From a virus, in IMG/VR virus record IMGVR_UViG_3300023278_000358, positions 1-34,024 of that record: a DNA stretch of 34,024 nt; one strand, given 5' to 3'. Below the pieces are notes generated by a model. The model did not search any database, was not told the origin of the DNA, and was given only the letters and a program-made list of their open reading frames with translations. Shown here piece after piece: positions 6,488 through 14,160 of the stretch. A program made the position numbers and the translations under genes. How positions within the stretch are numbered: position 1 is the stretch's first letter; every line of letters starts with the position of its first letter.

Positions 6488-6644
6488 TATTAAGCTCCTT
6501 GGTTAAAGAAACTATACGCGCCTCAAAATAATCACCAAATGATTCTATTTTGTTTGTTTTGAGAGCGCTTTCATAGTTAGATATTTCAACTTTAATCTTG
6601 TCCGCCTTCTTGATCTTGGCTATTTTTTGCTGAATCGTATTCAT
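6480..6644 (-). CDS. Small hypothetical protein at the end of the leftward operon
   Basis: A 54-residue ORF starting MNTIQQKIAKIKKADK, with AAGG six bases before the ATG. Its start lies inside the 3' end of the 6592-6963 gene and its stop overlaps the holin's last bases on the other strand. The product is Lys/Glu-rich and probably helical. The same bases form a long hairpin that looks like a terminator, so this is either a real last gene read through that hairpin or a chance ORF. No recognisable family. Confidence 0.4.
   Translation of the reverse strand: MNTIQQKIAKIKKADKIKVEISNYESALKTNKIESFGDYFEARIVSLTKELNTI
6525..6560 (+). terminator. Terminator-like hairpin at the convergence of late and early operons
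   Basis: AAAAT plus AATCA (6525-6534) pairs with TGATT plus ATTTT (6540-6551) with a 2-base bulge and a CCAAA loop, and is followed by the U-rich GTTTGTTTT. An outer stem (6518-6528 with 6557-6568, ending in GCGC on both sides) can form as an alternative. It lies 37 bases after the holin stop, between converging operons, and both strands are U-rich after the stem, so it may act in both directions. Confidence 0.55.
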
Positions 6645-6963
6645 CTAGTGCCTTTTGAATTAATAGTTTTCGTTTACCTGCAATCACGCCATATAGGTTA
6701 TGCGTCTGTATAGCCCCACAGCAAGAGTTACCTGATCTACCCAGAATCTCACCGCACTGATCCATAGAACATTTTAATACCCTAAGCTCAACCAATAAAT
6801 CTAACTGATCCTGGTTCCAGGTCGCACACTTCCAAACCTTTTTTTCACGAATCTTTGGGGTTGGCTTTACATCTATAAACCTGGAGCTGGCAAAATGCCA
6901 TGTTTTCCTGTTTTCAATGTGATCGAAATTCTTAGGTATTTTGGGGGTTGTGATTATACTCAT
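6592..6963 (-). CDS. Putative DNA-binding protein with SANT/HTH-like segment
   Basis: A 123-residue protein. Residues about 48-90 read as WNQDQLDLLVEL, a turn, then QCGEILGRSGNSCCGAIQ, which has the look of a homeodomain-like or SANT-type helix-turn-helix (aromatic W, leucines, then 'ILGRS' before a recognition helix). Four cysteines lie in or next to this segment. It may be a small early regulator. Its ATG overlaps the stop of the upstream 57-residue gene (ATGA). Function is unknown; DNA binding is an inference from the pattern only. Confidence 0.75.
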   Translation of the reverse strand: MSIITTPKIPKNFDHIENRKTWHFASSRFIDVKPTPKIREKKVWKCATWNQDQLDLLVELRVLKCSMDQCGEILGRSGNSCCGAIQTHNLYGVIAGKRKLLIQKALDEYDSAKNSQDQEGGQD

Positions 6964-7133
6964 TTTTTGCCACCAGTGCAGTCTATTTCTTCGACAGAAG
7001 TTGATGGTGATAGGCCAAGCTTAACCCAATCTTTAGGCTTATGTTCTGGCTTAGGCTTATTAAATATGCGGTCATAATTATCCTCAAACTGCTTATTCAT
7101 TGGCTTTGAAATTGGTTTATCTTTTGCTGACAT
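6960..7133 (-). CDS. Small hypothetical protein (57 aa)
   Basis: A 57-residue ORF with CTGGAG seven bases before the ATG and a 4-base ATGA overlap with the next gene. The product is Lys/Pro-rich and probably extended: repeated K-P dipeptides, then KDWVKLGLSPSTSVEEIDC. It carries no domain I recognise. The overlap arrangement and the ribosome site are the main reasons to accept it, since it also fills an otherwise empty 185-base gap in the operon. Confidence 0.75.
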   Translation of the reverse strand: MSAKDKPISKPMNKQFEDNYDRIFNKPKPEHKPKDWVKLGLSPSTSVEEIDCTGGKK

Positions 7134-7147
7134 TTTAATACTCCAGG

Positions 7148-7561
7148 TTATTTATAAAATATATGCTGATCTAATTCTAATACTACTGATAAGTCACCCG
7201 CCCAGTAAGGCGCTTGTATCCACGTAGCGTGGTAGTGTGTAGCGCCTTCGCTTATGTCTGTTACTGTACCAGCCATTATGTGCTTAGATAATAGAACTGA
7301 CTCCATAAACGCCTTATCGTCTTTAGGTTTGTCGCTAAGGCCGTCACAGAACCAACTAAACTGGCACTTGTTTCGTATAGGAAACTCACTCCAGGCATGA
7401 TACTTAGCTTGCTTAACTACACCACAGACAGTATCTGGGTAGCGTGGGTCAGCAACACGATTCATAGTTACAAACCCTACTGCTAAGTTACCAGCCAATG
7501 ACTCACCACGGGACTCATGATAGAGATTCAAGGCCAAGCACATGACTGCTGCGCTAATCAT
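7148..7561 (-). CDS. Cell-wall hydrolase, SleB/Hydrolase_2 family
   Basis: A 137-residue protein with the family signature LNLYHESRGES (catalytic Glu16), then AVGFVTMNRV, CQFSWFCDG at about 66-74 and GATHYHA at 107-112. Members are lytic-transglycosylase-like enzymes cutting the glycan strand. The N-terminus (MISAAVMCLALNLY) is hydrophobic but is already part of the catalytic domain, so there is no clear signal peptide. It lies in the leftward recombination operon rather than with the M15 lysin and holin, and overlaps the upstream gene by 4 bases. It could aid lysis or be packaged; the context does not decide. Confidence 0.9.
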   Translation of the reverse strand: MISAAVMCLALNLYHESRGESLAGNLAVGFVTMNRVADPRYPDTVCGVVKQAKYHAWSEFPIRNKCQFSWFCDGLSDKPKDDKAFMESVLLSKHIMAGTVTDISEGATHYHATWIQAPYWAGDLSVVLELDQHIFYK

Positions 7562-7779
7562 TTTTTAGCACCATTTGTTTTTTCATAAATAACCCAGGCC
7601 AGATCAGTGCGCTCAAACTCTTCAGCAGCTATTGCTAGCCTTAACTTAGCGTCTGCTATTTCTGCTCTTAAGGCTCGCGTTTTCATAAAAGCTTCATTCC
7701 ATTCTGTAGTAATGCGATCTAGCTCAGGGTTGGATTCTTCTAATAATTTGCTTTTCTTATCCATTCTCAATACTTCCAT
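7558..7779 (-). CDS. Small coiled-coil protein
   Basis: A 73-residue, highly charged, all-helical protein; residues about 20-60 form a plausible coiled coil (TEWNEAFMKTRALRAEIADA). The ATG at 7779 is preferred over the in-frame ATG at 7830 because AGGAGCAA, the start signal shared by this phage's early genes, lies just before it and a promoter with a perfect TATAAT lies at 7808-7835, after the longer start. It overlaps the hydrolase gene by 4 bases, so they are co-expressed. Function unknown; a lysis accessory or chaperone role would be guesswork. Confidence 0.78.
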   Translation of the reverse strand: MEVLRMDKKSKLLEESNPELDRITTEWNEAFMKTRALRAEIADAKLRLAIAAEEFERTDLAWVIYEKTNGAKK

Positions 7780-7807
7780 ACGTTTGCTCCTGTTTAAAAG
7801 TATCTTT

Positions 7808-7835
7808 ATTATAATCGGATTTGTCTCCATTGCAA
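7808..7835 (-). promoter_or_regulatory. Internal sigma70-like promoter of the leftward operon, with 15-bp operator-like repeat
   Basis: Reading leftward: TTGCAA (7830-7835), 16-base spacer, TATAAT (7808-7813). It lies in the 84-base gap after ninG and would drive the coiled-coil protein, hydrolase and distal small genes separately. The -35 box overlaps a 15-base sequence (7832-7846) found identically in the divergent control region at 10595-10609. Confidence 0.7.
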
Positions 7836-7863
7836 CACCTTTATGTAACTACCTTAGACTGCT

Positions 7864-8439
7864 TTAGGGAAGTTGTAGCTTCTTTTTTATTCTGAGTTTG
7901 TTTTTAAATATCTGTTTAACTCTACGCAGGTAGGTTATGTCGTGTTTAACGGTATCGTTGTTATGTTCTAGGGCTTCGACTTTATCTAGGCCGATACGCT
8001 CAATTAACTTATGACGGTACTCAACCACGTTACCACTTAAATATCTGTTACATTTATGGCACTGCTTGTGGCAGCAATGCTGATGGAAGGATAAGTGCCT
8101 AGCAGCGCCCCTAGATCGATAATGCCCAGCATCCCAGTAGCCATTATCTCTATTGGCGGTAGAATCGCAGCTAATACATGGCTGATCTCTATCACGGTAT
8201 CTAATGTAGGCGTTAAATGCTGCCTGAGCCTCTACACGCCATTCTGAGGCTGTTTTGACTGATTCCTTTAGTTTGGCAAGGGTTTGTCGTCTGCGCTTGT
8301 CTGAGGCCACTCTAGCGGCCTTACTGCCATGTTTTACTACACAATCCATGGAACAAAAGAACCCCAACGGAACTTTTATCCCAGATTCGACCAGGCTGTA
8401 TTCCTTACAGCAGCGGCACTTCTTTTTTGCATTAGGCAT
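7864..8439 (-). CDS. ninG: NinG/Rap-like recombination protein
   Basis: A 191-residue NinG homologue. The N-terminal zinc-binding cluster (Cys8, Cys11, Cys29, Cys33) and the core CISCD at 88-92, WDAGHYRSRGAARHLSF at 102-118, then CHKCNRYLSGN at 127-137 match the family closely. Lambda NinG/Rap is an endonuclease acting on branched recombination intermediates. Here it shares an operon with NinB, Erf and an SSB-like protein, so a phage recombination pathway is clear. It overlaps the preceding gene by 8 bases and is followed by an internal promoter. Confidence 0.93.
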   Translation of the reverse strand: MPNAKKKCRCCKEYSLVESGIKVPLGFFCSMDCVVKHGSKAARVASDKRRRQTLAKLKESVKTASEWRVEAQAAFNAYIRYRDRDQPCISCDSTANRDNGYWDAGHYRSRGAARHLSFHQHCCHKQCHKCNRYLSGNVVEYRHKLIERIGLDKVEALEHNNDTVKHDITYLRRVKQIFKNKLRIKKKLQLP

Positions 8440-8683
8440 TAGGTTCTTTTGGAAACAGAAGCATGGCGCTATCTACGTAGGCATCAAGTTCTTCTGGGGT
8501 TGGGGATATTGCCTCACCATATCCAGTGCAAACAAAAATATGATCAATAACGCCTATAGCGGTCATATCCTCATCATTATGACCACTCCAATCACGGCAT
8601 GTTTTCATTTGCGTTTCTTTTAGGTATCGGTAGCGTTTAGCATCTCTCATTATGTCTTCTATGGTGTCTGTCATGTTTTTCAT
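8432..8683 (-). CDS. Hypothetical protein between ninB and ninG
   Basis: An 83-residue acidic soluble protein. The ATG overlaps the ninB stop (ATGA) and its end overlaps the ninG start, so it is translationally coupled to both. The N-terminal DTIEDIMRDAKRYRYLKE helix resembles the short DAxRYR(Y/W)L motif I recall in many small phage early proteins of unknown role. There are two cysteines and no membrane segment. Co-location with recombination genes is the only functional hint. Confidence 0.8.
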   Translation of the reverse strand: MKNMTDTIEDIMRDAKRYRYLKETQMKTCRDWSGHNDEDMTAIGVIDHIFVCTGYGEAISPTPEELDAYVDSAMLLFPKEPNA

Positions 8684-9159
8684 TTCCGTGACTCCTTATA
8701 GTTTTCGTATTCAGTCAGCGTGTGGTCGGTAAATTCAACGCCGTATTCGCTGCCTTTTGAAAACAAATACTCGATAAATTCTGATCTGATACTCTTATCA
8801 AAACTTTTTGTTGATGGCCTGGTGGGTAGCATCGCCGTTCCGCACAAGCTGGCAATCCATCTATTGCCTTTTTTAAGTGGCTCACCCATACGCATTTTTT
8901 CATTAGCGAAATCCCAGGTAAGCAGCTCTTTCCATGTTTCTAAATCGTACCTAGAACCCATAGGGGTTATCTGTTTGGCAAAATCACCAATCTGAGCGTG
9001 ATAACAACTTTCCTGGAGTCTAGTACCTTTATTTTTTTCTCTGCCTAGCGTAACGATGACAGGTTCGCCACTTTTTAAGCCTTTGTTAGCCATTTCCCAG
9101 ACTTCCATCATCTTGGGCTTCACATCTTTTTTTGTAACGGTAAAGCGAATATCAGCCAT
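8680..9159 (-). CDS. ninB: NinB-like recombination protein
   Basis: A 159-residue NinB family protein: PVIVTLGREKNKGTRLQESCYHAQIGDFAKQI, a tryptophan-rich middle (ETWKELLTWDF) and a C-terminal EYLFSKGSEYGVEF helix follow the layout of lambda NinB, a ssDNA-binding recombination mediator. The ATG at 9159 is preferred over the in-frame GTG at 9168 because AGGTG lies about six bases before it; using the GTG would consume that ribosome site. It overlaps the HTH regulator gene by 8 bases, so regulator and NinB are coupled. Confidence 0.85.
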   Translation of the reverse strand: MADIRFTVTKKDVKPKMMEVWEMANKGLKSGEPVIVTLGREKNKGTRLQESCYHAQIGDFAKQITPMGSRYDLETWKELLTWDFANEKMRMGEPLKKGNRWIASLCGTAMLPTRPSTKSFDKSIRSEFIEYLFSKGSEYGVEFTDHTLTEYENYKESRK

Positions 9160-9376
9160 TAGAATCACCTAATGCAATAAACTCGCTTAATGTTAGATCA
9201 AAATATGTTGCAAAGCGTATGGCTAGAGAAACCTTAATATCAGTTCCATTTCTCCAACGAATAATTTGCTGTGGATGAACTTTAAAGTCACGGGCCAGTT
9301 GAGAACCTGTTGTTTTTTTCAGTGCCTGTGCTACTCTAAGCGAGGCTCCTGTGTCGGAGGTTTGATGTGTTTTCAT
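9152..9376 (-). CDS. Small Cro/CI-type (XRE) HTH regulator
   Basis: A 74-residue, mostly helical protein. Residues about 22-48 form a helix-turn-helix (GSQLARDFKVHPQQIIRW) and the rest are short helices, as in Cro. AGGGG lies about nine bases before the ATG at 9376. An extended -10 box (TGAGATAAT, 9399-9407 on this strand) just upstream could give it its own promoter. The likely target is the divergent control region near 10590, where a short dyad (10572-10583) and the 15-bp repeat are candidate operators. No integrase is present, so a lysogeny role is not supported; early-gene timing is more likely. Confidence 0.85.
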   Translation of the reverse strand: MKTHQTSDTGASLRVAQALKKTTGSQLARDFKVHPQQIIRWRNGTDIKVSLAIRFATYFDLTLSEFIALGDSNG

Positions 9377-9394
9377 GCTTTTATTCCCCTAGTG

Positions 9395-9403
9395 TGTTAT
9401 TAT
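9395..9403 (+). promoter_or_regulatory. Possible extended -10 promoter antisense to the leftward operon
   Basis: TGTTATTAT matches TGnTATAAT at all but one base, but no good -35 is present. It overlaps an oppositely directed extended -10 (TGAGATAAT, 9399-9407). If used, transcription would begin near 9410 and stop at the terminator at 9427-9456, giving an RNA of about 45 bases. Confidence 0.35.
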
Positions 9404-9426
9404 CTCATTGCTCCAGTAAGGAACTT

Positions 9427-9456
9427 AGCCCGCATTGTAACAGCGGGCTTTTTTTT
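9427..9456 (+). terminator. Rho-independent terminator on the strand opposite the leftward operon
   Basis: A perfect 7-bp stem AGCCCGC/GCGGGCT (9427-9433 with 9443-9449), 9-base loop and eight T residues. The orientation is clearly rightward although every gene within about 3 kb is leftward. It would stop antisense or late read-through transcripts before they reach the divergent control region, or end a small RNA. Confidence 0.85.
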
Positions 9457-9462
9457 GGCTAC

Positions 9463-9723
9463 CTAAAAAGGTATATCGCCATCCTCATCAAATTTATTAT
9501 CCTGTGCCTGAGCTGGCTTAGGTACTGACTGCTGCTCCTTAGCTGTAAAGCTAAATGACATGGCAGGCGCTTTAGGGTTTGCGTCAGCTTTACGTAACCA
9601 GCCACTTACCCAGTATTCAACACCATTAACTTCTGCACTTCCTTTAAACTGTGGGTGAGTCTCGCTTTTACGATCTTCATTTTTCCAAATTGACCCACGG
9701 TTGTTGTTGTCGTAGTTGCTCAT
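9463..9723 (-). CDS. Small SSB-like protein with DIPF tip
   Basis: An 86-residue protein. Residues 1-60 (GSIWKNEDRKSETHPQFKGSAEVNGVEYWVSGW) look like a compact beta-barrel of the sort seen in short phage ssDNA-binding proteins. A Gln/Pro-rich linker leads to an acidic end EDGDIPF, which matches the C-terminal tip that bacterial SSB uses to recruit repair and replication partners. It lies 2 bases after the 9726-9920 gene and in the same operon as Erf and NinB. The ribosome site is the GGAGCA motif. The SSB role is inferred from the tip and context; overall similarity to canonical SSB is low. Confidence 0.75.
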   Translation of the reverse strand: MSNYDNNNRGSIWKNEDRKSETHPQFKGSAEVNGVEYWVSGWLRKADANPKAPAMSFSFTAKEQQSVPKPAQAQDNKFDEDGDIPF

Positions 9724-9725
9724 AA

Positions 9726-9920
9726 TTAATGCTCCGTTTCTGTACTGTTTATTAAAAATTCATCTTGCGTTAAAAGTACGTCTCTTGCGTATGCCGCAAT
9801 AGCGCCTCCTACCTTAACTGCCATGCTGTCTTTATCATCATCGATAATGTCAACATCGAAATATACACCATCATAATCACCTTTTTTAACATCTTTAATT
9901 GTAATTATTACCTTGCTCAT
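9726..9920 (-). CDS. Small hypothetical protein downstream of erf
   Basis: A 64-residue acidic protein: MSKVIITIKDVKKGDYDG, then a run of Asp residues and AVKVGGAIAAYARDVL. It resembles a small beta-alpha unit but I do not recognise a family. The ATG at 9920 is chosen over the upstream GTG at 9926 because the GTG overlaps the erf stop and lacks an upstream purine-rich site at usable distance. Position between the annealase and the SSB-like protein suggests a recombination accessory role. Confidence 0.7.
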   Translation of the reverse strand: MSKVIITIKDVKKGDYDGVYFDVDIIDDDKDSMAVKVGGAIAAYARDVLLTQDEFLINSTETEH

Positions 9921-9922
9921 AA

Positions 9923-10531
9923 TCACATCTCTTTAGTTAGTCGTACAAATTCTTTTTGCTTAGTGGTCAACTGTTTCCAGATAACCTGCTTTTCTACTTC
10001 ATCTAGCTCTGCCAAAGCTTCTACTAGCTCGCTTGTTTCGCCAGAAGTCTGACTTGATACTACTAGTGCAACTACAGCCTGTGCCAACGATTTACTGACA
10101 CGCTTTGCTGGTGGTTCTACTGCTGCTGGTTGGCCTCTAAACATAGCCGCCTCAGCATCATCATCTACAGCAGGTATTCCAGCCATTGCTTGTAAAGCGT
10201 AACGTCTAGCGTAAGTAATAGCGGAACCTGCACCTTGAGCAGTGAATTTATCCATAGGCAATAAATACTCACCCTGTAGCCATTGACCTGAATTGTGCAT
10301 AATCATTGTTACTACGCCAACGCCTTTACCGCCTTCTGACGTTATAGGTAGCTGAACAAACGACAAGCCATGATTGGCAAATGGCTGTTTGATAACCTTT
10401 ATGACGCTAGTTAAGTCTGCGTATGATGATTTAAAGAAAGGGTTATTACTATCTTTTACAGCACCACCCATTTCTGCCTGCGCAAGACATAATGCCGTTG
10501 CAAGGTCTGTGATTGATTCTGATTGTTTCAT
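9923..10531 (-). CDS. erf: Erf-type single-strand annealing protein
   Basis: A 202-residue ERF superfamily recombinase. The signature NNPFFKSSYADLTSVIK at about 29-45, the GLSFVQLP segment, and GAGSAITYARRYALQAMAGI near 110-130 (ending in a DDDAE patch) are characteristic. It anneals complementary strands and is often needed for genome circularisation of permuted, terminally redundant DNA. It is the first gene of the leftward operon; its start site is GGAGCAAT followed by ATG at 10531, directly downstream of a consensus promoter at 10567-10595. Confidence 0.92.
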   Translation of the reverse strand: MKQSESITDLATALCLAQAEMGGAVKDSNNPFFKSSYADLTSVIKVIKQPFANHGLSFVQLPITSEGGKGVGVVTMIMHNSGQWLQGEYLLPMDKFTAQGAGSAITYARRYALQAMAGIPAVDDDAEAAMFRGQPAAVEPPAKRVSKSLAQAVVALVVSSQTSGETSELVEALAELDEVEKQVIWKQLTTKQKEFVRLTKEM

Positions 10532-11023: not shown

Positions 11024-11341
11024 ATGACTACTAACAAAAACAAAACTTGGACTTTGACGGATAGCAACTTTGCATGGGATATGCACAATGCTGGTATGCC
11101 GCATAAGACTATTGCAAAAAAGCTACGTAGGACAGAAAAAGCTGTTGAGATTAACATCAGCAAAACTCGTGTTCGCATTACGGATGAAAAGCTTAATAAA
11201 GCCTGGAGTCAGGGTTCTGTTTCCGACAAGCCAAAAGCTAAAGCCAAAGAAATAGATATGACTTTTGATGGTGTTGAAATGATTCTCGCATTGGCTGCGG
11301 GTTTGTTTATCGGCTCAATCATCACTTACTTTTATTTATAG
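11024..11341 (+). CDS. HTH protein with C-terminal membrane anchor
   Basis: A 105-residue protein with two parts. Residues about 8-50 read as WTLTDSNFAWDMHNAG, a turn, then TIAKKLRRTEKAVEI, the look of a SANT/homeodomain-like helix-turn-helix in which the last helix reads DNA. After a Lys-rich linker, residues about 84-104 are a single hydrophobic segment ending at the C-terminus (ILALAAGLFIGSIITYFYL). The combination would tether DNA or a regulator to the inner membrane. The start site is CTGGAGCA. A terminator-like hairpin follows within 10 bases. Confidence 0.75.
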   Translation: MTTNKNKTWTLTDSNFAWDMHNAGMPHKTIAKKLRRTEKAVEINISKTRVRITDEKLNKAWSQGSVSDKPKAKAKEIDMTFDGVEMILALAAGLFIGSIITYFYL

Positions 11342-11342
11342 T

Positions 11343-11380
11343 AAAAAAAACCCCACTTGCAATTAAACAGGTGGGGCTTT
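11343..11380 (-). terminator. Terminator-like hairpin, stronger on the minus strand
   Basis: A 9-bp stem (11351-11359 with 11368-11376, one G-T pair) flanked on the left by eight A residues, which become eight U residues after the stem on the minus strand. On the plus strand only CTTT follows, so rightward termination would be weak. No leftward gene lies immediately to its right, which raises the question of what it terminates. Confidence 0.65.
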
Positions 11381-11385
11381 AGAAT
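11357..11385 (+). promoter_or_regulatory. Sigma70-like promoter embedded in the hairpin, firing into the non-coding stretch
   Basis: TTGCAA (11357-11362), exactly 17 bases, TAGAAT (11380-11385). The start would be near 11392, inside the first strand of an 11-bp helix. The -35 box sits inside the hairpin of the terminator-like element. It would drive a 440-base leader and then the nuclease-helicase-primase genes. Confidence 0.7.
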
Positions 11386-11388
11386 GGG

Positions 11389-11831
11389 TTGTGTTGGTGA
11401 AGAGGTTACAGCCTCATTCGAGCCAGCGAAAGTCAGGAGAGAAAACCAGCGCCAACACAGGTGTTAGTTTATCAAAAGCGTTATACCAACGCAATCTTCT
11501 TTCTTCGCAGGGTCGAAACCAGCAATAATATGTGGGTTTCTTTAGCGTTGCCACAATAAAAAACAACTCTCATGCCTACTACTGGCTTTAAACGTAGGAT
11601 AGCAATCACCGCCAGGACTGATGGGACTGATCAACGCAGCGCAATGCCGAGATACAAACATAGTTAGCGGATACACAAATAGGGAGCCGACCAGCTCAAC
11701 ACGGATCGTTGAATGGTTTATGCAAATGTGGTGATTGGATTAAGCAAATAGCATACTGTTGGTTATGGTTACTTCTATAGGTATCCCCAACCATCTAGTG
11801 ATAACTATTGCCTGAAGAAACTGGAGCGAAG
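11389..11831 (+). ncRNA. Structured gene-free stretch: candidate non-coding RNA, long leader or origin
   Basis: About 490 bases (11342-11831) carry no ORF with a ribosome site on either strand. An 11-bp helix pairs 11389-11399 with 11450-11460 and encloses a GAGGT/GCCTC hairpin (11402-11415). Further hairpins are GCGTT/AACGC at 11478-11492, CCTAC/GTAGG at 11575-11598, GAGC/GCTC at 11684-11697 and TCAAC/GTTGA at 11696-11712. The hexamer CAACGC occurs at 11487 and 11632 and inverted at 11545. A consensus promoter lies just upstream. I see no tRNA, tmRNA or intron core. It may be a regulatory leader, a stable phage RNA or a transcribed replication origin; the sequence alone does not choose. Confidence 0.5.
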
Positions 11832-12302
11832 ATGAAAATTATACTAAATGAGTGCGAGCAGAAGATTGCCAAGCACCTAGCAGTAAGCCGTAACAAGAAC
11901 GCAAGAAGCAAAGGTAAGCCCAACACTAAGATGGGGAACCAATCAGACGCAGAGACTGATTTAGAAGGTATAGCAGGTGAGTTAGTTGTATGTAAGGCTC
12001 TGAACCTGTACCCAGACACAGAAATAGATTTGGTTGATCTACCTAAGTTTGATTTACTAACTGCCAAGGGTAATAAGGTTGACGTAAAGACAACTAAATA
12101 TCAAACTGGCAGGATGCTTGCCACTCTCAAGAAGAAGATCGAAGACTGCGATATTTATGTCCTGGTTGTAGGCTCTTTCCCATCGTATAGGATCGCAGGC
12201 TGGTGCAAAGCTGAAGAGCTATTAAAAAAAGAAAACATCATTAATCTTGGGCATGGCGAAGGATACGCTTTAAGCCAGGATCAGTTGAGGCCATTAAAAT
12301 GA
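11832..12302 (+). CDS. PD-(D/E)XK-fold nuclease
   Basis: A 156-residue protein with the restriction-endonuclease-fold core: Glu45/Glu50 in an N-terminal helix (DLEGIAGELVVCKALN), Asp74 in FDLL, then Asp84-Val-Lys86 in KVDVKTTKY. Such small phage nucleases cut branched or foreign DNA, or resolve recombination intermediates. The ATG at 11832 is preferred over the in-frame TTG at 11808 because GGAG lies five bases before it. It overlaps the helicase gene by 4 bases (ATGA), so the two probably work together. The exact substrate is unknown. Confidence 0.78.
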   Translation: MKIILNECEQKIAKHLAVSRNKNARSKGKPNTKMGNQSDAETDLEGIAGELVVCKALNLYPDTEIDLVDLPKFDLLTAKGNKVDVKTTKYQTGRMLATLKKKIEDCDIYVLVVGSFPSYRIAGWCKAEELLKKENIINLGHGEGYALSQDQLRPLK

Positions 12303-13783
12303 ACCTACGACCACACCAAGAATTAGCCATCAGCATGATCCGTGATTCAATTCGCAAGGGCAACAGGAAGCCTATTTTAGCTGCACCTTGTAGCTTTGGT
12401 AAGACCATTACGGCAGCATCAATATTAAAAAGTGTGCAGGACAAGGGCAAACGCGGAATATTTATTTGTGATCGGGTTAAGCTAGTAAGTCAGACCTTAG
12501 ACGCATTTACTGAGCATGGCATTGATTTTGGTGTTATCCAGGGACAGCATGAGTTGCAGCGGAAAGCTCCGATCCAGATTGCCAGCATACAAACCCTTGC
12601 CCGCCGAAGAGTAAAACCTGTATTTGATTTGGCTATAGTAGATGAATGCCACATTCACTACAAAGCGCTGACAGAGCTGATGGCTATGTATAACAACGTC
12701 GTATTTATAGGCTTGTCGGCAACACCATTATCAAAAGGCTTGGGTGTTCATTACGATGATCTACTTGTGCCTATCACCCCAAGGGAGCTGTTATCCCAAG
12801 GTTATCTATGCCCCATTGATTATTTTGGCGGACGCAATGTAAGCCTAAAAGGCATTAAAACCAAGCAGCTACCCACTGGTGGTAGTGATTACGACCCCAA
12901 AAGCCTATCAGAAGCCACAGAGCAGGATGAAGGCTTAGTTGGTGACATTGTAGAAAATTGGAAAAAATACGGTAATAACGGTTTAACCATAGCTTTTACG
13001 CCAAGCATCAAGCACTCAAAATCTTTGGTTGATACGTTCAATGCTGCAGGTATATCAGCAGAGCATATCGATGGTTATATGGATCAACCATTGAGGGATG
13101 TGTTGTTTGCCAGCCACGCCCGTGGGGATTTTAAAGTGCTTTCATGTAGCCGCTTGCTGAATACAGGATTCGATTCACCAGGGGTCTCAGTTTTAATCGA
13201 TGCGTTTCCGACCAAGTCAAAAATCGTTTTTTGCCAGCGGGCGGGTAGAATTGCCAGGACTAGCCCAGGGAAAGATAAAGCAATTTACCTGGATCACGCA
13301 GGCAACGTAGCACGACATGGATTTGCAGAAGATATTGTTGCGGAGTCTTTGGATGACGGAGAAAAGCGGTATGACGAGAATAAGCTTGTTCAAAAGAAAG
13401 AGAAAACCAGTACGGCAAAAGACTGTCCAGTATGTACCCAGTTAATGGTGGGCTTGTCATGCAAGTGCGGCTTTGAAATCCCGATAAGGGAGCAGCTAGA
13501 AACAACATCAGAAATATTAAAGAAGCTTACTCCCGAACAAAGAAACAAGACTGTATCAAAAGAAGACAAAACTGTTTTCTATTCGGAGTTATTGTTATAT
13601 GCTAGGGGTAAGGGTTTCAAGAACGGAGGCGGTTGGGCTTCGCATACTTACAGAAATAGGTTTGGTGTGTGGCCTAATGCTATTAAACCCCAGATGATAC
13701 CGATGGGTATTATAAGTGAACCAACATTAAAATATATCAAAAGTACCCAGATAAGGTACAGCAAAAGGAGCAAGGTAGCATGA
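12299..13783 (+). CDS. SF2 DEAD/DEAH-type helicase
   Basis: A 494-residue superfamily 2 ATPase. Visible motifs: Q-like LRPHQE at 3-8, Walker A APCSFGKT at 29-36, motif II DECH at 115-118, motif III SAT at 140-142, LNTGFDSPGV near 287-296 and motif VI QRAGRIAR at 313-320. A four-cysteine zinc site follows (Cys376, 379, 388, 390). The C-terminal 90 residues are basic. It lies between a nuclease and a primase zinc ribbon, each overlapping by 4 bases, so it is most likely the phage replication or recombination helicase. It is not a DnaB-type ring helicase. Confidence 0.92.
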   Translation: MNLRPHQELAISMIRDSIRKGNRKPILAAPCSFGKTITAASILKSVQDKGKRGIFICDRVKLVSQTLDAFTEHGIDFGVIQGQHELQRKAPIQIASIQTLARRRVKPVFDLAIVDECHIHYKALTELMAMYNNVVFIGLSATPLSKGLGVHYDDLLVPITPRELLSQGYLCPIDYFGGRNVSLKGIKTKQLPTGGSDYDPKSLSEATEQDEGLVGDIVENWKKYGNNGLTIAFTPSIKHSKSLVDTFNAAGISAEHIDGYMDQPLRDVLFASHARGDFKVLSCSRLLNTGFDSPGVSVLIDAFPTKSKIVFCQRAGRIARTSPGKDKAIYLDHAGNVARHGFAEDIVAESLDDGEKRYDENKLVQKKEKTSTAKDCPVCTQLMVGLSCKCGFEIPIREQLETTSEILKKLTPEQRNKTVSKEDKTVFYSELLLYARGKGFKNGGGWASHTYRNRFGVWPNAIKPQMIPMGIISEPTLKYIKSTQIRYSKRSKVA

Positions 13784-14160
13784 GCATTGAATACGTTTCT
13801 GAAGGGTTAGGTCTAAAAAAAATGGCTGGAGAATATAAGGGGCCGTGTCCATGCTGCGGGGGCCGAGACCGTTTTCACGTCAAATTGGGTAAATCTGGGA
13901 ATATGATGGTCTATTGTCGGTACCTATGCTCGTACAGCTCTATTATGCGTAACCTAGAAGACCGAGGCTTAATTGAAAAGAAAGATTTTAAGCGTGAAGG
14001 CCCAACAGCTTCACAGAAGGCATTGATTGCCCAGGATAAGTTGGTGATGGCTTTGTATGAGGCTGACAGGAAGGTGCAACCAGATCCATCAGTAGGTGAC
14101 TTTAGACGATACCGTTTGGCCCAAGAAAGATATAACGCAATGGCCCCGTTAAATAATTAA
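13780..14160 (+). CDS. Primase zinc-ribbon protein without a catalytic domain
   Basis: A 126-residue protein. Residues 1-55 match the primase/helicase zinc-binding domain: GPCPCCGGRDRFHVK with Cys23, 25, 26, then VYCRYLC with Cys46 and Cys50. In complete phage primases this module is followed by a TOPRIM or AEP catalytic domain; here only about 70 helical, charged residues follow and the gene ends with a stop. No second ORF with a catalytic domain follows. It may steer host primase to phage DNA or act with the upstream helicase. AGGAGCAAGG lies before the ATG, which overlaps the helicase end. Confidence 0.85.
   Translation: MSIEYVSEGLGLKKMAGEYKGPCPCCGGRDRFHVKLGKSGNMMVYCRYLCSYSSIMRNLEDRGLIEKKDFKREGPTASQKALIAQDKLVMALYEADRKVQPDPSVGDFRRYRLAQERYNAMAPLNN

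Follow-up and report, generated by a model that had tools for sequence, protein, structure and literature searches.

Positions 11386–11820 (plus strand) of the window, the complete 34,024-base IMG/VR virus record analysed here, form a conserved, structured, promoter-headed non-coding element that occupies a fixed position in related phages. Its best explanation, to which we assign a probability of about 0.55, is a large structured non-coding RNA gene, the first of an undescribed family that is carried by marine, largely uncultured phages; it would serve the replication module, most likely in cis. Three features mark the interval as a structured non-coding RNA of ~430 nt: nucleotide identity above that of the neighbouring helicase gene, indels of a non-coding type and base-pair covariation. 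That the element acts as RNA, is discrete and serves replication is our inference.

Genomic setting and conservation

The record carries genes for portal, scaffold, major head, NinG, NinB, an Erf-type annealing protein, SSB, a helicase, a primase-type zinc ribbon and terminase. This combination of head, terminase and replication genes identifies it as a tailed phage. No recognised DNA polymerase or integrase was found among the proteins searched in the record. An operon at 6592–10531 runs leftward and the genes from 10666 onward run rightward. Within the rightward block, a gap of 490 bases (11342–11831) separates an HTH-type gene (11024–11341) from the gene at 11832–12302 (plus strand), whose ribosome-binding site follows the RNA at once. 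The original prediction placed this gap before a nuclease, a helicase and a primase zinc ribbon. Protein searches bore out a superfamily-2 helicase (12299–13783) and a primase-type zinc-ribbon protein (13780–14160), both on the plus strand, whereas the nuclease is unproven: the gene at 11832–12302 falls in phrog_18407, a PHROG of unknown function, and its match to DUF5843 is just under the cut-off. In some relatives (L027) the phrog_18407-family gene is missing between the RNA and the helicase.

No credible ORF had been expected in the gap and none was found. The longest ORF is 50 aa, and both the strand and the length of ORFs vary among 32 homologs. Indels of 1 nt (270) and 2 nt (75) predominate in these homologs over those of 3 nt (7), a pattern that is wrong for coding DNA; a conserved frame with indels in multiples of three, as in a protein-coding gene, was not observed. 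A conserved ORF in relatives would have spoken against the RNA. We also discarded a short ORF that opens with the invariant AUG at pseudoknot 1 and was read by eye as ~69 aa in one relative, since a stop codon ends it after 31 codons in the window and after 4 in many distant phages.

A blastn comparison of the gap sequence with relatives collected for the next gene and the helicase gave ~50 matches, most of them near full length. In the ten pairs with full data, nucleotide identity was 76–88% between the RNA regions versus 64–69% between the helicase genes, the RNA being higher in 10/10 comparisons. Since phage genomes are dense, ~430 non-coding bases conserved above a helicase gene argue for an important role. 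The sequence folded better than its shuffled versions on the plus strand (z = -2.4) but not on the minus strand (z = -0.9). The repeated CAACGC elements that had also been proposed proved not to be a conserved repeat family.

More than 100 DNA fragments of related phages carry the RNA in conserved form, immediately before their replication genes. Scans by RNA motifs alone led to a second, distant group, with helicases 42–52% identical to that of the window and the RNA in the same slot. The usual layout in this group is an Erf gene, divergent and immediately to the left, then the RNA, then the helicase 0.9–2 kb to the right. Overall, the helicase was downstream on the same strand in 121/121 testable loci, -26 to 2025 nt away, in a set that consists of long-enough loci, is redundant and was partly selected through the helicase. 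It was likewise downstream on the same strand in 30/30 of the loci found by the RNA motif only.

When genomes were scanned with the helicase alignment, one close relative turned up, on a contig of a Gammaproteobacteria MAG. A covariance model built on 47 sequences, with the MAG copy excluded, detected the RNA in this contig with 69 bits, 1 kb before the helicase. In this 49.6-kb contig (NYWC01000113.1; L215, L216) the same 13.5-kb phage region is apparently present twice, which is probably a phage concatemer or a terminal-repeat assembly. The motif pattern of the close relatives had no hit in 84,980 species genomes of bacteria and archaea, and cultured phages likewise lacked a match to the close type. 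In 50,697 phage records, blastn gave no accepted match to the element, to its distant versions or to the alternative form described below (type B). A 64-nt match in Salicola phage SCTP-2 was discarded because in L215 it is confined to promoter-like DNA around the RNA 3′ end and beyond it.

Promoter, folding and boundaries of the RNA

A sigma-70-type promoter, TTGCAA-17-TAGAAT, lies at 11357–11385 on the plus strand, with a predicted start near 11391–11393. It had been proposed on its consensus match. The score alone does not bear this out, since it is one of four 9-of-12 matches in the window where four are expected by chance, but its conservation does. The pattern TTGN3-N17-TAN2AT was kept in 31/31 close relatives retaining that part, at a nearly constant distance from the first helix. 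The promoter is convincing because the pattern recurs at the same place in relatives although the surrounding DNA changes. In the distant group, a promoter upstream of the first helix (P1) was not obvious.

Overlooked in the first reading, a hairpin (CCCCACTTG/CAGGTGGGG; 11351–11376) overlaps this promoter, covering the -35 box and the spacer. Its stem (11351–11359/11368–11376) has a folding energy of -15.7 kcal/mol, and a hairpin of -9.8 to -22 kcal/mol forms at the promoter in every relative. The stem sequence differs between phages (CCCCAC, GGGCCG, ACGGG, GCCCC) and the -35 and -10 boxes are unchanged. No good T-run follows the stem on the plus strand, whereas about five to eight T do so on the minus strand, where the hairpin resembles an intrinsic terminator. 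This T-run is the complement of an A-tract upstream of the -35 box (11343–11350, plus strand), which is present in all close relatives and may also be an UP element. The interval 11343–11385 thus looks like a rightward promoter joined to an intrinsic terminator that acts leftward. This arrangement, here and at the equivalent positions, hints at an insulator or at the place where an antisense RNA ends. No conserved minus-strand promoter of the ColE1 RNA I antisense type was found; the best candidate site was present in 19/32 sequences, with variable spacing.

The RNA begins with a 5′ domain (11390–11459, plus strand). The 11-bp helix predicted at 11389–11399/11450–11460 is present in the sequence, two of its pairs being U-G. 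Its core, P1 (11390–11397/11452–11459), is paired in all cells but one across 32 sequences, with G-C replaced by C-G in three. Further hairpins had been expected after this helix; the one at 11402–11405/11412–11415 covaries at three of four pairs. Compensatory changes, whose absence would have spoken against the RNA, were thus found among close relatives both in P1 and in other helices. The distant phages keep the architecture of P1 with a different sequence. Downstream of P1 are a hairpin and a pyrimidine tract (11478–11501), followed by a hairpin at 11532–11535/11551–11554 (plus strand) that is paired in 32/32 sequences, with a changed pair in 6. Two distant contigs (L200:2734–2863 and L213) carry a 41-nt insertion at a stem tip in the 5′ domain, and the loop apparently tolerates insertions.

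RNAalifold, run on the full MAFFT alignments, misplaced helices and yielded energies that were similar for the two strands. Helices were therefore assigned by reference to conserved anchors, and 7 of them, with 26 pairs in total, were tested in their own right over 47 distinct central-domain sequences (alignment A1). As controls, the 3′ partner was slid by 1–3 columns, or shuffles were made (n = 500). Standard pairs occurred in 83.6% of cells, compared to 24–42% for slid controls. Double changes were found in 218 cells, versus at most 17 in slid controls and 80 ± 9 in shuffles, with 0/500 shuffles reaching the observed value. The covariation score was 0.430 versus at most 0.081 in slid controls. 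For the same 47 sequences, the number of further pair types was not above shuffles.

The seven tested helices include the second stem of each of two H-type pseudoknots. The loop of pseudoknot 1 (11574–11597, plus strand; 11574–11576/11584–11586 and 11579–11582/11594–11597) and its partner covary through the combinations CUAC/GUAG, CCAC/GUGG, CCA/UGG, GCGC/GCGC, GGGC/GCCC and GGAC/GUCC. Pseudoknot 2 (11684–11718, plus strand; 11684–11687/11694–11697 and 11689–11693/11714–11718, with a hairpin at 11698–11700/11708–11710) shows compensated changes of the same kind (ACCA/UGGU, ACGC/GCGU, ACUC/GAGU, ACUA/UAGU, UCGC/GCGA). Between the two (11609–11670, plus strand), a closing helix (11609–11612/11667–11670) surrounds the invariant GAUGGGA and CAAAC motifs and an inner helix (11630–11632/11651–11653). 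The inner helix is paired in 100% of cells with double changes at 3/3 pairs; the closing helix is weaker (72.9% paired). A further helix at the 3′ end, GGCAA/UUGCC, was inconsistent and was dropped.

We also used G-U versus A-C combinations as an indication of the strand. Their ratio was 82 to 28 in the central helices, falling to 39 to 28 when one invariant G-U pair is left out; in the 5′ helices it was 26 to 32, and no plus-strand bias appears there. Since the bias shrinks without the invariant pair and is absent from the 5′ helices, the assignment to the plus strand rests mainly on the promoter.

The conserved 3′ end, GGURUCC..AACCAUC ... AUUGCC, lies at 11776–11820 (plus strand). A U-run follows at this point in the distant phages, most of which have AUGACUUUUUUC after the RNA and then a separate promoter of the TTGACx-17-TAAAAT type. 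The U-run together with the separate promoter indicates that the RNA is probably a discrete unit. No strong hairpin was found just before the U-run in these phages, so that the 3′ end is uncertain. In the window, no terminator was found between the RNA and the next ribosome-binding site. The DNA just after the RNA in the distant group (L183, L177, L199 and similar) forms a promoter-like block in which AAGTGTG(A) boxes accompany the TTGACx-17-TAAAAT sequence. The same block recurs after the helicase in L215:7659–7735 and is perhaps a phage-specific regulated promoter.

An alternative 3′ domain

In L006, L007, L040, L045 and L054, the promoter of the window and ~165 nt of its 5′ domain are followed by an unrelated 3′ part of ~380 nt, called type B (for example L007:3420–3860). 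Distant relatives of type B with a different 5′ end occupy the same slot in L058, L067, L070, L071, L075, L078, L080 and L095. The covariance model of the type A centre does not detect type B, and the two 3′ domains are therefore treated as unrelated. The type B alignment also folds, with -84.9 kcal/mol on the sense strand versus -67.7 kcal/mol on the other strand. Double changes were seen at 30/58 predicted pairs, a count that is biased since the structure was fitted to the same alignment.

Possible roles of the element

Rfam 15 gave no match at gathering score for the window and 12 loci of all subtypes, type A and B. At E<5, the element itself gave chance-level scores only. No tRNA or tmRNA was detected by ARAGORN, group I and group II intron models of Rfam did not match, nor did the GOLLD and ROOL covariance models at gathering score. 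The original prediction left a choice between a new non-coding RNA, a regulatory leader and a transcribed origin. Covariation, promoter conservation and the lack of an Rfam match strongly support the first of these, a new structured RNA that is non-coding and headed by a promoter of its own. A leader and an origin stay among its possible functions, although in the distant phages the U-run and the separate promoter speak against a pure leader. The RNA came to light in the same way as the structured RNAs that comparative genomics revealed in metagenomes, several of which are marine or from phages (PMC2864571); it matches none of those families that are in Rfam 15.

In our preferred reading, host RNA polymerase would start at the promoter within the hairpin region 11351–11385 and produce an RNA composed of the 5′ stem domain and a 3′ domain with two pseudoknots. 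In distant relatives this transcript would probably end at the U-run as a discrete RNA. In the present phage it would probably also be the 5′ part of the replication-operon transcript, and hence be processed or read through. Acting in cis, it could activate or prime the start of replication, or modify the polymerase that enters the operon. Its invariable place before the helicase operon speaks for such a cis role, although a fixed position may only be conserved gene order. An independently working RNA is favoured by the separate promoter that follows it in distant phages and by the exchange of the 3′ domain without obvious change of the helicase. We place cis roles slightly ahead of trans roles, which are nearly as likely.

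A trans-acting or self-assembling structured RNA of the GOLLD or ROOL sort would be an abundant early RNA binding a host or phage factor or itself, next to the operon through gene order only; we regard this as quite possible. The strong promoter of its own, the several pseudoknots, the high conservation and the discrete 3′ boundary in distant phages would all fit, as would the 3′ domain swap (helicase identity to that of the window is 68% in one type B phage and 58–75% in type A). Yet in these data the RNA was never found away from the helicase operon, and this phage has no terminator before the next gene. As with GOLLD and ROOL, the RNA is large, has several pseudoknots, is encoded by phages or prophages and has no known function. 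It differs from them in size (~430 nt versus 659 nt for a ROOL and more than 800 nt for many GOLLD), in lying at a replication operon rather than near tRNA genes and in its unmatched sequence and structure (PMC12286853). We consider it unlikely that the element is a cis-acting leader like the putRNA of HK022, a nascent RNA that binds RNA polymerase and here would let it pass the downstream terminators of the replication operon. The element does resemble putRNA as a folded phage RNA placed right after an early-type promoter and upstream of an operon (PMC9378689), it is always co-oriented with that operon, and the hairpin and pyrimidine tract after P1 point in the same direction. Since the genes between the RNA and the helicase vary, the target of such a leader would be the operon rather than a single gene. 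However, putRNA is a ~70-nt RNA with two stem-loops present at both early operons (PMC9378689), and no RNA of that description was found; the element has ~430 nt and pseudoknots, occurs once per locus and is followed in distant phages by a separate promoter.

A transcribed replication origin, in which a pre-primer RNA forms an R-loop and the minus-strand terminator ends an antisense control RNA, seems equally doubtful. ColE1 RNA II is a transcription-primed origin RNA, and conserved pseudoknots are, to our knowledge, not part of the ColE1 or T4 origin systems. In favour of an origin, the element adjoins helicase and primase-type genes in a genome with no DNA polymerase among the proteins searched, and a conserved terminator-like hairpin of the minus strand sits exactly at its promoter. 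T4 origins use R-loop primers (PMC3016281), and the locus shares with these and with ColE1 a promoter and RNA at a replication locus, together with a possible antisense terminator at the promoter. The antisense promoter was not found here (best site 19/32), though, GC skew follows gene direction with no further signal, there are no iterons, and priming is an analogy only. Finally, base-pair covariation alone cannot separate RNA from single-stranded DNA, and the 5′ helices have no excess of G-U over A-C. A role for the conserved structure as folded single-stranded DNA is nevertheless very improbable, as the conserved promoter fires precisely into it, the central domain has more G-U than A-C, folding beats shuffles only on the sense strand of the promoter and type B also folds better on that strand.

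The preferred RNA gene provides a promoter, approximate boundaries and a testable secondary structure that includes two pseudoknots. The role of large phage RNAs thereby becomes directly testable at a locus linked to DNA replication, and the alternative 3′ domain offers a swap experiment made by nature. We tentatively suggest a modular phage RNA, in which a shared cassette of terminator-over-promoter and 5′ domain would drive one of two unrelated structured 3′ domains before the replication genes, the RNA helping to start DNA replication or converting the polymerase. GOLLD likewise consists of one conserved and one variable part (PMC12286853), the variable part here being the 3′ domain.
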